Assembly: GCA_017466325.1 (NCBI GenBank)
Contig: JAFTUK010000042.1
Span: forward strand, 1 to 38,728
Reading direction: 5' to 3'
From: Bacteroidaceae bacterium
GTDB taxonomy: Bacteria > Bacteroidota > Bacteroidia > Bacteroidales > Bacteroidaceae
Length of the DNA stretch: 38,728 bases
Shown: piece by piece, positions 21,621 to 34,014 of the stretch
Numbering within the stretch: position 1 is the stretch's first letter
Layout of the letters: every line of letters begins with the position of its first letter
The notes under the pieces: model-generated
Database searches by the model: none
What the model saw: the letters and a program-made list of their open reading frames with translations, nothing else
What the model was told of the DNA's origin: nothing
Program-made: the position numbers and the translations under genes

Positions 21621-23771
21621 TTATAGTCCCAGTTCCTTGATGATGTTCTTGCCTCCGCCCCAGCGGTCGATTATCCACAGGACGAAACGGATGTCCACAC
21701 CAATGCAGCGCTGCAGTGTGGGGTCGAAACTGATGTCACCTGCCATGGCCTCCCAGTTGCCGTCGAAAGCAAGGCCGATGACATGGCCGTTGCCGTCGAA
21801 CATGGGCGAACCGCTGTTGCCGCCGGTGATGTCGTTGTTGCTCAGGAAGCAGAGGTGCATCTGCTTGGTCTTCTTGTCGGCATACTTGCCGAACTTGCCC
21901 TTCTTGAGCAGTTTCACTATGTCGGCCTCCAGTTCATAGTCCTCTATCTCCTCCTGCTTGGCAGCCTTGTCCAGAAGGCTCTGGCTGTTGGTAAAGTAGT
22001 TGTAGTGCGTGCCGTTGGCGGTGTAGTCCTGTATGAAGCCGTAGGACAGGCGCATGGTCATGTTGGCGTCGGAATAGTGGGCCTCGTCCAGCTCCATGTC
22101 CAAGAGGGCCTGTGTGAGCAGGCGCTCGTTGTGGTCGATGACAGGCAGGGTGCTTCTGATGGAAACCAGCAGGTCATAATAGGTGTTGATGATAGCATCG
22201 GCATACTGCATGGCGATGTCCGTCTCGCGCAGGGTGCTGTCGGCCATCACCTTTGCCACGCAGGTGGTGTCCAGCAGGCAGGTCTTGGCAAAGACATCCT
22301 TGGCATAGGCCTTGGTGTCGCCGCCATAGAGGCTGTCTATCAGTTGGTAGAAGTCGGGCAGGAACTCACCCTTGGACCATGTGCGGTAGTCCTGAAGGAG
22401 CACACCCATGGTTTCCTCGTCCACGCGGGGTTCGTAGTCCTTGTAGAAAGCCTTCAGGTTGTCCACGCACAGGGCGGCATCCTCGGCGGTGGCATCAAAG
22501 GGCAGACGTGACAGACGGCTGGCAACGTTGCGCAGTTCTATGCCGCGGAAGAACACTTCGCTATAGTAGGTCAGCAGCGCCATCTTCTCCTTGCGCTGGG
22601 TATAGGCCTTCTCCAGTTCGGACAGGACGGAACCGTAGCGTGCCTTGCGTGCCTCGTCCTTGGCATACCAGTTGCGAATGTTCTGCTCTATCTTCTTCTT
22701 CTGTCCCACGATGTCCAGGTCCTTCACGGCCTTGTTCATGCCTATGGAGTTCTTCCAGTAGTTGCTGCTGCTTGCCCACTTGCTGGAGTACTTGATGGCA
22801 ATGGCACGGTCCTCGTCCATCCAGTGCCTCCATACGTTCTGCTTGGCGGTACGCACATCGATGACGGCCTGGTTGGTGGCCTCGGTGCGCTCCACGATGC
22901 CCCATGAAGAGAGGTAGCGGTCGGTGCTGCCGGGATAACCGATGGTCATGCAATAGTCGCCGGGGGCATAGCCCTTGATGGAAACGGGAGCATAGCCGGG
23001 AGTCTTCAGGGGCACATTGTCCTCGCTGTACTCGGCAGGTGTGCCGTCGGGCTTGGCATAGATGCGGAACATGGAGAAGTCGCATGTCTGGCGGGGCCAC
23101 ATCCAGTTGTCGGTGTCGCCACCGAACTTGCCCAGGGTCTCCGTGGCGGTGAACACCAGGCGAATGTCGTGGTACACCTTGTAATAGTTGGCATAGAAAG
23201 CATTGCCACCATAATAAGATGCCACACGGCAATCTAATCCCTTGTTTCTCTTCTCAAACATAAACTCTCGCTCCAACTCAATACATATGCTATCAATGTA
23301 AGCACTTTCTACCTGTGCCGAATCCATCACACCGGCCTTTTCCTTGTAAAGGCGTGAGAGTTCCTCATTGACACGCTCGGTGCAATCCTCCACTCTGTCC
23401 AGAAAGCGCACATAGAGTCCATGGGCAGGACGCTCCTGTTCGCGCTTCTTGGCAACGAAACCGTTCTTCAGTATGTCGTCCTCGGGAGTGGACAGGGCCT
23501 GGATGGCACCATAACCGCAATGGTGGTTGGTGAAGAACAGACCTTCGGGAGACACCACAACGCCGGAGCAGAAGTCGCCCAGATTGATAACAGCATCCTT
23601 CAGGCTGCGGCCGTTGGGATTGTACAGTTCCTCGGGAGTGAGGGTAAGGCCGAGAGACTTCATCGTCTCTGCCGTCTTGGGGTTGATGTGAGAGAGCATC
23701 CACATGCCCTCGTCGGCACTCGCCATGAGCGAGCACATCACTGCCGTAAGTGTAACTAATAGTTTACGCAT
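21621..23771 (-). CDS. S46 family dipeptidyl-peptidase, DPP7-like
   Basis: This 716-residue protein has a signal peptide (residues about 1-19) and the S46 serine peptidase landmarks: FTNHHCGYG (catalytic His, residue 83 or 84), DTDNWMWPRQTCDF (catalytic Asp) and GGNSGSP with Ser653. S46 enzymes cleave dipeptides from the N terminus of peptides in the periplasm. Specificity in this family follows the residue 18 after the Ser: Arg673 in P. gingivalis DPP11 selects Asp/Glu, while Gly in DPP7 allows hydrophobic residues. Here that residue is Gly671 (AFDGNWE), so DPP7-like specificity is predicted. Length matches the family (about 700-720). Transcription is predicted from a promoter inside a palindromic element at 23809-23840; a terminator follows. 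Confidence 0.94.
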   Translation of the reverse strand: MRKLLVTLTAVMCSLMASADEGMWMLSHINPKTAETMKSLGLTLTPEELYNPNGRSLKDAVINLGDFCSGVVVSPEGLFFTNHHCGYGAIQALSTPEDDILKNGFVAKKREQERPAHGLYVRFLDRVEDCTERVNEELSRLYKEKAGVMDSAQVESAYIDSICIELEREFMFEKRNKGLDCRVASYYGGNAFYANYYKVYHDIRLVFTATETLGKFGGDTDNWMWPRQTCDFSMFRIYAKPDGTPAEYSEDNVPLKTPGYAPVSIKGYAPGDYCMTIGYPGSTDRYLSSWGIVERTEATNQAVIDVRTAKQNVWRHWMDEDRAIAIKYSSKWASSSNYWKNSIGMNKAVKDLDIVGQKKKIEQNIRNWYAKDEARKARYGSVLSELEKAYTQRKEKMALLTYYSEVFFRGIELRNVASRLSRLPFDATAEDAALCVDNLKAFYKDYEPRVDEETMGVLLQDYRTWSKGEFLPDFYQLIDSLYGGDTKAYAKDVFAKTCLLDTTCVAKVMADSTLRETDIAMQYADAIINTYYDLLVSIRSTLPVIDHNERLLTQALLDMELDEAHYSDANMTMRLSYGFIQDYTANGTHYNYFTNSQSLLDKAAKQEEIEDYELEADIVKLLKKGKFGKYADKKTKQMHLCFLSNNDITGGNSGSPMFDGNGHVIGLAFDGNWEAMAGDISFDPTLQRCIGVDIRFVLWIIDRWGGGKNIIKELGL

Positions 23772-23808
23772 ACCTTATTATTTATTGTCCTTTTTTCTTT
23801 AGCGGATG

Positions 23809-23840
23809 CAAAGGTACGATTAAGTGAGCGAAATGTCAAA
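23809..23840 (-). promoter_or_regulatory. Promoter of the S46 peptidase within a palindromic element
   Basis: On the minus strand, TTTG (23840-23837), a 20-base spacer and TACCTTTG (23816-23809) match the consensus. The spacer (ACATTTCGCTCACTTAATCG) is almost the same as in the dapB promoters, which is unusual because spacers are normally free to vary. Confidence 0.7.
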
Positions 23841-23872
23841 TTTATTTGAACATTTCCGAGCGATAGTACCTT
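23811..23872. repeat. Palindromic promoter element, copy A
   Basis: Outer arms AAGGTAC (23811-23817) and GTACCTT (23866-23872) pair over 7 bp. An inner 11-bp stem with one bulge joins 23830-23840 to 23845-23856 around loop TTTA. Between the stems the leftward strand carries CGCTCGG on one side and CGCTCACTTAATC on the other. Confidence 0.75.
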
Positions 23873-23888
23873 AGAGGCGCCAGCCTCA

Positions 23889-23951
23889 AAGTACGATTAA
23901 GTGAGCGAAAAAGCAAATCATCGATTTGGTTTTTCCAAACGTGAGTACCTT
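23889..23951. repeat. Palindromic promoter element, copy B
   Basis: It has the same layout and orientation as copy A, 17 bases away. The inner stem pairs 23907-23919 with 23923-23935 (12 bp, one mismatch) although its sequence differs from copy A. The outer arm has lost one G, turning the -7 box into TACTTTG, so promoter activity is doubtful. Confidence 0.7.
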
Positions 23952-23954
23952 AGA

Positions 23955-23991
23955 GCTCTTTAAGGCCTCTAAGGTCCTTAGGGACTTTATG
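23955..23991. repeat. 9-bp minisatellite (4 units)
   Basis: Units read GCTCTTTAAG, GCCTCTAAG, GTCCTTAGG and GACTTTATG. They resemble the array at 20384-20419. Confidence 0.6.
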
Positions 23992-24036
23992 GCCGATAAT
24001 TCCGGGCGTGTAGCACGGGATTTCATATTTTATTGC

Positions 24037-33027: not shown

Positions 33028-33119
33028 CTAATAAATTTGACAAATCGTTCACAGAATGCCAACTTTGATGTTGAATGCGGTCCTCATGACGCTGTAATTC
33101 ACAATAAAGGTTAAATCCT

Positions 33120-33150
33120 TTTGTATTTCCCTCACTTATTCGTACCTTTG
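33120..33150 (+). promoter_or_regulatory. Upstream promoter of the dapB operon
   Basis: TTTG at 33120-33123, a 19-base spacer and TACCTTTG at 33143-33150. The spacer TATTTCCCTCACTTATTCG differs at 2 of 19 bases from that of the second promoter 85 bases downstream. No matching left palindrome arm is seen here. Confidence 0.65.
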
Positions 33151-33163
33151 AAACATCGTTTCT

Positions 33164-33233
33164 AAATTACTTCCGCTCGGAAATAAAAATAAAATCAGTT
33201 TTATTTTGTATTTCCCTCGCTTAATCGTAATTT
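33164..33233. repeat. Palindromic promoter element, copy C
   Basis: Outer arms AAATTAC (33164-33170) and GTAATTT (33227-33233) pair; the inner stem pairs 33179-33194 with 33199-33215, interrupted by one mismatch and one bulge. Its constant parts CGCTCGGAAAT and ATTTCCCTCGCTTAATC match copies A and B, while both stems differ in sequence yet still pair. Confidence 0.75.
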
Positions 33234-33235
33234 TG
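33205..33235 (+). promoter_or_regulatory. Downstream promoter of the dapB operon
   Basis: TTTG at 33205-33208, a 19-base spacer and TAATTTTG at 33228-33235 lie inside palindromic copy C. The start would be near 33241, giving a leader of about 18 bases to dapB. Confidence 0.7.
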
Positions 33236-33258: not shown

Positions 33259-34014
33259 ATGAAAATAGCATTGATAGGATACGGCAAGATGGGCCGTATG
33301 ATAGAGGAGATAGCCTTGGGTCGTGGACACGAGATAGTGTGCATTATCGACATTGACAACCAGCAGGATTTCGATAGCGAGGCGTTCAAAAGTGCCGATG
33401 TTGCCATAGAGTTTACCGCACCGCATACGGCCTACGACAACTACATGAAGGCCTTCAGGCATGGCGTGAAGGTGGTGAGCGGCAGTACGGGATGGATTCC
33501 CCAGCATGGCGAGGAGGTGAAGAAGATGTGCACCGAGCAGGGCAAGACTCTGTTCTGGAGTTCCAATTTCAGTCTTGGCGTGACCATCTTCCGTGCCGTG
33601 AACCGCTATCTTGCCCGCATCATGAACGGTTTTTACTCATACACTCCCGTGCTTGAGGAGGTGCATCACATACATAAACTTGACCACCCGTCGGGCACAG
33701 GCATCACTCTTGGCGAGGAACTTGTGGCCGAGGTGGAACGCCTCAACGGCTGGGAGTTCGGCATGCTGACTAATCCCGACGGCACCAAGGAAGGAACAGA
33801 GGACGTTCCTCAGGACAAGTTGCGCATAGACAGCATCCGTCGTGACGAGGTTCCCGGCATACACAGCATAACATGGGAGAGCGAGGCGGACTGTATCACC
33901 ATCACCCACGATGCACATTCCAGAAAGGGCTTTGCCCTTGGTGCCGTGCTGGCGGCAGAGTACACGGCTGCCCACGAGGGCCTGCTGACCATGTCTGACC
34001 TGTTCAAGTTCTAA
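33259..34014 (+). CDS. dapB: 4-hydroxy-tetrahydrodipicolinate reductase
   Basis: This 251-residue protein has the N-terminal nucleotide-binding IGYGKMG loop and the substrate motif EEVHHIHKLDHPSGTG, which carries the catalytic His and Lys. DapB reduces the dihydrodipicolinate precursor in lysine and meso-diaminopimelate synthesis with NAD(P)H. The length is normal for the Bacteroidetes form. Two near-identical promoters lie upstream and lepB starts 13 bases after its stop, a pairing common in Bacteroidales. Confidence 0.95.
   Translation: MKIALIGYGKMGRMIEEIALGRGHEIVCIIDIDNQQDFDSEAFKSADVAIEFTAPHTAYDNYMKAFRHGVKVVSGSTGWIPQHGEEVKKMCTEQGKTLFWSSNFSLGVTIFRAVNRYLARIMNGFYSYTPVLEEVHHIHKLDHPSGTGITLGEELVAEVERLNGWEFGMLTNPDGTKEGTEDVPQDKLRIDSIRRDEVPGIHSITWESEADCITITHDAHSRKGFALGAVLAAEYTAAHEGLLTMSDLFKF

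Follow-up and report, generated by a model that had tools for sequence, protein, structure and literature searches.

A probable family of structured, promoter-like DNA repeats dispersed among Bacteroidales

What are the palindromic elements that stand upstream of two open reading frames in a contig of a Bacteroidaceae draft genome, and what keeps their arms paired while the sequence of the stems changes? Small palindromic repeats are usually regarded as clutter or as passengers of RAYT transposases. The answer that we favour, and that we consider probable with some reserve, is that these elements belong to a dispersed Bacteroidales family of structured DNA repeats that are used as promoters, fold as DNA, and are copied by a route other than a Y1 transposase.

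Repeat units of the window and their fold

The window, i.e., the whole stretch of 38,728 nt that was analysed, carries a 5S rRNA gene at its start (6-116, Rfam RF00001) and two groups of repeat units. Each unit comprises a segment L (ACTCACGCTCGG), an inner stem region (H1), and a core (R), and a small hairpin (H2) lies between units. On the minus strand, unit A is the gene-proximal copy (23807..23875), with outer arms at 23872-23866 and 23817-23811, L at 23867-23856, H1 at 23855-23832, and the R core at 23831-23815. Its promoter-like boxes (23809..23840, minus strand; TTTG at 23840-23837, N20, and TACCTTTG at 23816-23809) are aimed at a 716-aa ORF (21621..23771, minus strand). An H2 hairpin on the same strand (23866..23894, GTACTTT-GAGGC-TGGC-GCCTC-TAAGGTAC) lies between it and unit B, the upstream copy (23886..23955, minus strand), in which L occupies 23946-23935, H1 has 26 nt (23934-23909), and the R core spans 23908-23892; the -7 box of B is broken (TACTTTG, one base short). 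On the plus strand, unit C (33161..33235; L 33169-33180, a 32-nt H1 at 33181-33212, R core 33213-33229) has TTTG at 33205-33208, N19, and TAATTTTG at 33228-33235, aimed at a 251-aa ORF, a putative dapB (33259..34014, plus strand). It is preceded by a promoter-only copy, R0 (33119..33150, plus strand; TTTG at 33120-33123, N19, TACCTTTG at 33143-33150; R core 33128-33144), and by the H2 hairpin between the two (33142..33170, plus strand; inner stem GAAAC-ATC-GTTTC at 33150-33162).

Re-reading the sequence bears out what the preliminary description had said of copies A, B, and C: their positions and strands, the outer arms (AAGGTAC/GTACCTT in A, AAATTAC/GTAATTT in C), the inner stems that differ in sequence and still pair, the promoter boxes of A and C with a decayed one in B, and a constant 3' block, namely the R block, in which the copies show 0, 0, and 2 differences, respectively. 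A 20-nt pattern of this block, allowing up to three mismatches, matched four places in the window against a mean of 0 in 100 shuffles, and the fourth (33126-33145) is R0, which had been missed. Array A/B lacks an R0, and a CTCTAAGGTCCTTAGGGAC-like string may stand in its former place. This string lies at 23950-23995 of the window, at the upstream end of unit B, and a similar one flanks an element in L371. The z-scores for folding as single-stranded DNA are -3.17 for A and -3.63 for C; that of B is weaker (-1.55), and the outer arms of B are absent from the predicted minimum fold.

The unit folds over approximately 70-85 nt into an outer stem, an asymmetric internal loop (CTnnCGCTCGG opposite CTCnCTTAnTCG, with CGCTC in both strands), and an inner stem. 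We gathered 199 distinct units with search patterns for L and R, so the conservation of these two parts is partly imposed. At the positions that the patterns leave free, Watson-Crick pairing was found in 175 units at n1 (36% expected), 184 at H3 (47%), and 165 at H4 (36%). H1 measures 24 nt in 97 units and 28-40 nt in 90. The 97 units with a 24-nt H1 were aligned on a structure of 15 pairs, in which 91.2% of the cells are paired, against 77.4% after shuffling. Two-sided changes number 176 versus 48, the covariation score is 0.349 versus 0.106, and none of 500 shuffles matched the real alignment on any of five measures. Shuffles overstate the significance because the units are related; controls in which one arm was slid by one to three columns preserve this relatedness, and there the pairing falls to 34%-47%. 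RNAalifold, unaided, found the inner stem alone (6 pairs). Paired changes thus extend well beyond the three copies in which they were first noticed, and this covariation supports the suggestion that the fold is either selected or copied through. The hairpin between units is also structured, with an H2 inner stem of at least 4 bp in 49 of the 85 spans, compared with 13% for shuffled halves.

Arrays ahead of genes

The R core, TCnCTC[A/G]CTTA[A/G/T]TCGTA, occurs 85 times in the 2.59-Mb draft genome (60 exact matches and 25 with one mismatch), and copies are therefore far from few; the reversed pattern gave 0 matches at up to one mismatch. Matches with two mismatches (15 of 100, with 22 in the control at the same limit) were kept out of the copy count. 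The 85 cores form 47 sites, of which 22 are single, 13 hold two, 8 hold three, and 4 hold four. The order in an array is R-(H2-L-H1-R)n, followed by the gene. A recognisable L accompanies 58 of the cores; the other 27 head an array (13), stand alone (12), or occur once in the middle and once at the end of an array.

Sites were oriented using codon-usage gene calling, which replaced a cruder ORF calling. A downstream gene was called at 45 of the 47 sites, and all 45 sites point toward it on the same strand, 39 of them within 103 nt, as expected for elements placed at gene starts. None of the 47 lies inside a called gene. Their upstream neighbours are on the other strand in 25 cases, on the same strand in 16, and uncalled in 6. 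The cruder pass gave 46 downstream ORFs, 35 on the same strand and 11 on the other, and put 14 of the 47 sites inside an ORF. Read from the gene starts, many of the downstream genes look like housekeeping genes.

PMC7366714 gives the Bacteroidales-type promoter consensus as TTTG at -33 and TAnnTTTG at -7. This sigma-ABfr arrangement is present in the sequence of the promoter-type units, with the -33 TTTG in the 3' strand of the inner stem and the -7 box forming the 3' outer arm; the -33 box and the spacing were read in A, C, and R0. Since both boxes lie in its 3' strand, the last unit of an array is positioned as the promoter of the next gene. Of the 181 terminal cores (those with no recognised unit behind them), 170 have an intact -7 box, versus 41 of 101 internal ones; in the own genome, the figures are 40/43 and 11/38. 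We infer that the terminal units are active as promoters, and dozens of genes appear to take their promoter from the repeat. The earlier proposal of a promoter arm directed outward from the element is likewise supported. Units are joined head to tail through H2, and the last one in the array would serve the next gene. They occupy the expected promoter positions of many ordinary genes while keeping a fold that promoters do not need. In only 6 of the 199 units does L have an A facing the third T of TTTG; we read this as avoidance of an antisense promoter, because full pairing there would create a -7 box on the other strand.

Among the 47 pairs of adjacent units, 19 are alike (≥0.8), 7 of these with an identical H1, and 20 are unlike (≤0.3), random pairs of units from the same genome averaging 0.26. 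These two kinds of neighbours suggest that units multiply in tandem and also that unlike units come together. The alike pairs could also result from template switching at quasi-palindromes combined with replication slippage, a process involving neither mobility nor a selected fold, in which the paired changes would be products of correction. The scarcity of one-sided changes beside the many two-sided ones fits such a process, as does the fact that, in 71 of 82 cases, the n1 base of L pairs as well with the -7 box before it. We nevertheless judge it unlikely, because it leaves aside the 20 pairs of unlike neighbours, the internal loop that is asymmetric across genera, and the position of L outside any promoter.

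Two sites (C28:26078/26117 and C53:23754/23794) are putative divergent promoters, each made of two R arms. A separate palindrome, CGGACACGGCATGCCGTGTCCCTACC, also found in a CGGACGCTGCACGCAGCGTCCC version, lies just upstream of several arrays (e.g., L031, L036, L050, and L017) and may represent another repeat family.

Relatives and sibling elements at gene 3' ends

At least one R core was found in 20 of 24 congeners, with numbers ranging from 0 (G010, G011, G022, and G024) to 43 in G001 and 59 in G006, against 85 in the own genome. In G015, 9 of the 14 listed cores either read GCTCTCGCTTATTCGTA or come close to it, the single mismatch being at the first base, which suggests a subfamily of its own. 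The full-unit pattern matched at least 113 stretches in records of named genomes. Among the matches listed, the record titles are Bacteroidales groups (Candidatus Equimonas and Minthosoma are Bacteroidales) plus one plain 'uncultured bacterium', and they include the isolates Prevotella aff. ruminicola Tc2-24, Prevotella sp. P5-50, and Prevotella sp. AGR2160. A search with a covariance model built from the unit gave matches in at least 14 of the 149 genomes scanned in the order, including the own one, and in at least 2 of 148 across the phylum, the second besides the own genome being a 31-bit match; these counts are lower bounds because both scans used stricter filters. Two contigs of a viral collection carry full units (L192:7338-7406 and L193:6064-6132) and could be prophage or host DNA. 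The numbers of units differ between close relatives. Together with their placement and their fold, this opens promoter turnover through a structured repeat to direct testing in bacteria of the gut and rumen.

We compared the regions upstream of matched genes in two sister genomes, 25 in G004 (23 of 28 queried genes plus two genes of the window) and 16 in G001 (where one of 15 matches, L269, was left out by a position rule), orthology being taken from the best DNA or protein match only. The G004 upstreams include 2 with a full unit, 5 with an R-like core (≤3 mismatches), and 22 with a -7 box within 170 nt, a clear box being missing in the other 3; the respective numbers in G001 are 2, 5, and 13. 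The R core is thus not the ordinary promoter consensus of the genus, since an R-like core is found in only 5/25 and 5/16 of these upstreams. In 20 of 22 pairs, the terminal -7 box of the own genome and its G004 counterpart stand equally far from the start codon, to within 7 nt (shuffled mean 6.3, maximum 15); in this set, the nearest box was used for three genes with multiple boxes, three own sites are promoter-only cores, and a unit is present at two of the G004 sites. Just upstream of the first unit at C11:17600 and C7:3938, a native-looking -7 region can still be read, and the G004 units of two matched genes have different stems in which pairing is kept. Units would have been added at an existing -7 box, so that the old box ends up upstream of them and the start codon stays as far away as before. 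Insertion at -7 boxes is what the comparison of species suggests, with loss in G004 as the alternative; neither polymorphism between strains nor excision was observed.

The same loop occurs in elements of another kind. The own genome contains 51 matches to the pattern TCGGCA-N{8,36}-TGCTCTC, some of them plainly coding chance matches, and the control contains 1. We analysed a sample of 29 stretches holding 31 such sibling elements. They have the internal loop of the promoter-type unit and outer stems that are not promoters, e.g., AATCTGC/GCAGATT or TTTTGC/GCAAAA, although 8 of the 31 have no outer pairing in the tested register. The model of the promoter-type unit found 24 hits in these stretches at E 1.3e-8 or better, plus one promoter array. 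After merging, 30 places remained, 2 of them inside a called gene. A right-hand gene was called at 27, and in 26 cases this gene ends toward the element, at a distance of no more than 52 nt in 21. The sibling elements are oriented against their gene. Outer stems that are not promoters also occur in other genera (L299, L309, L310, L313, and L314). The sharing of the loop in elements lacking a promoter indicates that the loop and the fold are the constant part, and that the promoter is one of its uses. An identical 30-nt core is found in 13 of the 31 elements, and these 13 are 76%-100% identical over 86 nt at separate places; this is a further argument against template switching and slippage, and accords with our preferred reading of a dispersed, copied DNA repeat.

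The hairpins might instead work in RNA, each unit being a 5' UTR leader transcribed from an upstream promoter and attenuating or stabilising the mRNA. Read-through leaders are possible, because upstream -7 boxes are kept at some loci and 41 of the 101 internal ones are intact, and PMC8040213 describes candidate RNAs of palindromic sequence from Bacteroidetes. In pairs free of the promoter, G-U (G-T in DNA) mismatches show no clear excess over A-C ones (21 versus 17). When all 14 pairs are counted, A-C mismatches outnumber G-T ones (88 versus 48), an excess arising mostly in promoter-fixed columns, which makes the mismatch test of DNA versus RNA a weak one. The Rfam covariance models gave nothing near a gathering score on the elements (five chance-level matches of 12.6-20 bits, against cut-offs of 44-90), and we discarded a known RNA family on this basis. 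H2 straddles the expected transcription start, and the sibling elements are antisense to the gene at 3' ends. A leader is for these reasons quite unlikely. The position of H2, the antisense siblings, and the balanced mismatches (21/17) favour, without proving it, a role of the fold in DNA rather than in the element's own transcript, as initially argued, and the fold probably acts as single-stranded or extruded DNA during copying or insertion, not as RNA.

The conserved loop raises the question of which enzyme or process reads it. Its strands could be the binding sites of a regulator, in which case the arrays would be operators and the repeats would mark a regulon. The presence of CGCTC in both strands would suit this, as would the conservation of the -33 to -7 stretch beyond what a promoter needs, though that stretch is also the search pattern. 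Operators would leave the covariation of the stems unexplained, and the loop recurs, without a promoter, in the sibling elements at the 3' ends of genes, making this a decidedly improbable account. Within the reading of a repeat that folds as DNA, a bolder and much more tentative version can be formulated: a class of elements folding as single strands, recognised by their loop and carried to transcription boundaries by a dedicated enzyme, with one branch installed at the melted -7 box and another at gene 3' ends. If so, this would be a promoter-rewriting mobile element that has spread through Bacteroidales and takes over the promoters of ordinary genes.

Known repeat systems and candidate enzymes

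Several known repeats share part of this organisation. The BOX elements of Streptococcus are modular, with a variable number of inner repeats, form hairpins, and lie near genes. By description they resemble the units in all these aspects, and differ in sequence, in taxon, and in the promoter boxes that each unit has in its stem. The Correia elements of Neisseria are small palindromes able to bring a promoter to nearby genes, as the units would; by description, the head-to-tail arrays and the internal loop motif are particular to the units. Integron attC sites have an outer stem, an unpaired spacer, and an inner stem, often with one bulged base, occur in tandem arrays, and keep their fold although the stem sequence varies. 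The units share the stem-spacer-stem layout, the arrays, and the retained fold. They differ in the outer arm, which is GTAnn, and no GTTRRRY core was found in it. The profile of the integron integrase (TIGR02249) had no match over the cut-off in 7 genomes, and its weak matches also occur in 14/14 controls, a set that includes no positive control. We excluded an integron-like attC on the absence of the core and of an IntI over the cut-off. MITEs are defined by terminal inverted repeats, a target duplication, and a cognate transposase. In the units, the outer arms are inverted, and at some loci a -7 box can be read on both sides; no cognate enzyme was identified.

The closest comparison is with REP, BIME, and REPIN, which PMC3733652 describes as palindromic repeats tagged by GTAG or CGTC, CGTC repeats being found in Bacteroidetes too, without a dedicated transposase. 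Like these, the units are short, palindromic, intergenic, numerous, and often clustered. The promoter-type units differ in being untagged at the foot, longer, endowed with an internal loop and a promoter, and turned toward the gene start, and no RAYT was found with them. Neither tetranucleotide is at the stem foot in the consensus of 97 promoter-type units, TCGAAGGTAC. The H2 part of the sibling elements does contain CGTC strings. Because each assignment fails on a defining feature that was tested, the units are, as far as their sequence tells, a probably new variety of small structured intergenic repeat outside RAYT-REP, attC, and Rfam. A literature search that included six literal core sequences returned no account of the element, in a coverage that leaves out most subscription journals.

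The copying of the units would fall to a replication process or to an enzyme that is not a Y1 transposase; profile searches for Y1 and IntI tied no transposase or recombinase to the family. REP elements mobilised by RAYT, itself a Y1 transposase, would explain small palindromic intergenic repeats in clusters, and Y1 genes over the cut-off do exist in four of nine more distant unit-carrying genomes (G202, G085, G171, and G089; ten further genomes were scanned). The draft genomes are 61%-89% complete, and the gene can thus be missed. Yet Y1 has no match above the cut-off in the own genome, G001, G005, G006, G008, G014, G015, G020, and G021, nor in any congener with at least 11 cores, G007 and G017 having sub-cut-off matches only. 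Of the 19 congeners searched, G010 and G022 alone exceed the cut-off, and neither carries an R core. The part of the early proposal that saw a dispersed, REP-like repeat stands, whereas its RAYT/TnpA-REP transposase has no match over the cut-off in the own genome or in the core-rich congeners, and mobilisation by RAYT is highly improbable.

We also inspected five Y1 loci, one each in G202, G085, G171, G089, and G022, further matches in G089, G022, and G010 lying outside this set, and the 20.9 kb covered contains no unit. Visual inspection shows other palindromes close to each of the five genes (L377-L381, frames of 149-229 aa, from four other genera and one congener), e.g., CCCAGCCTGAAGGCTGGGG in L380, and these genes and palindromes are possibly RAYT-REP systems of the order.
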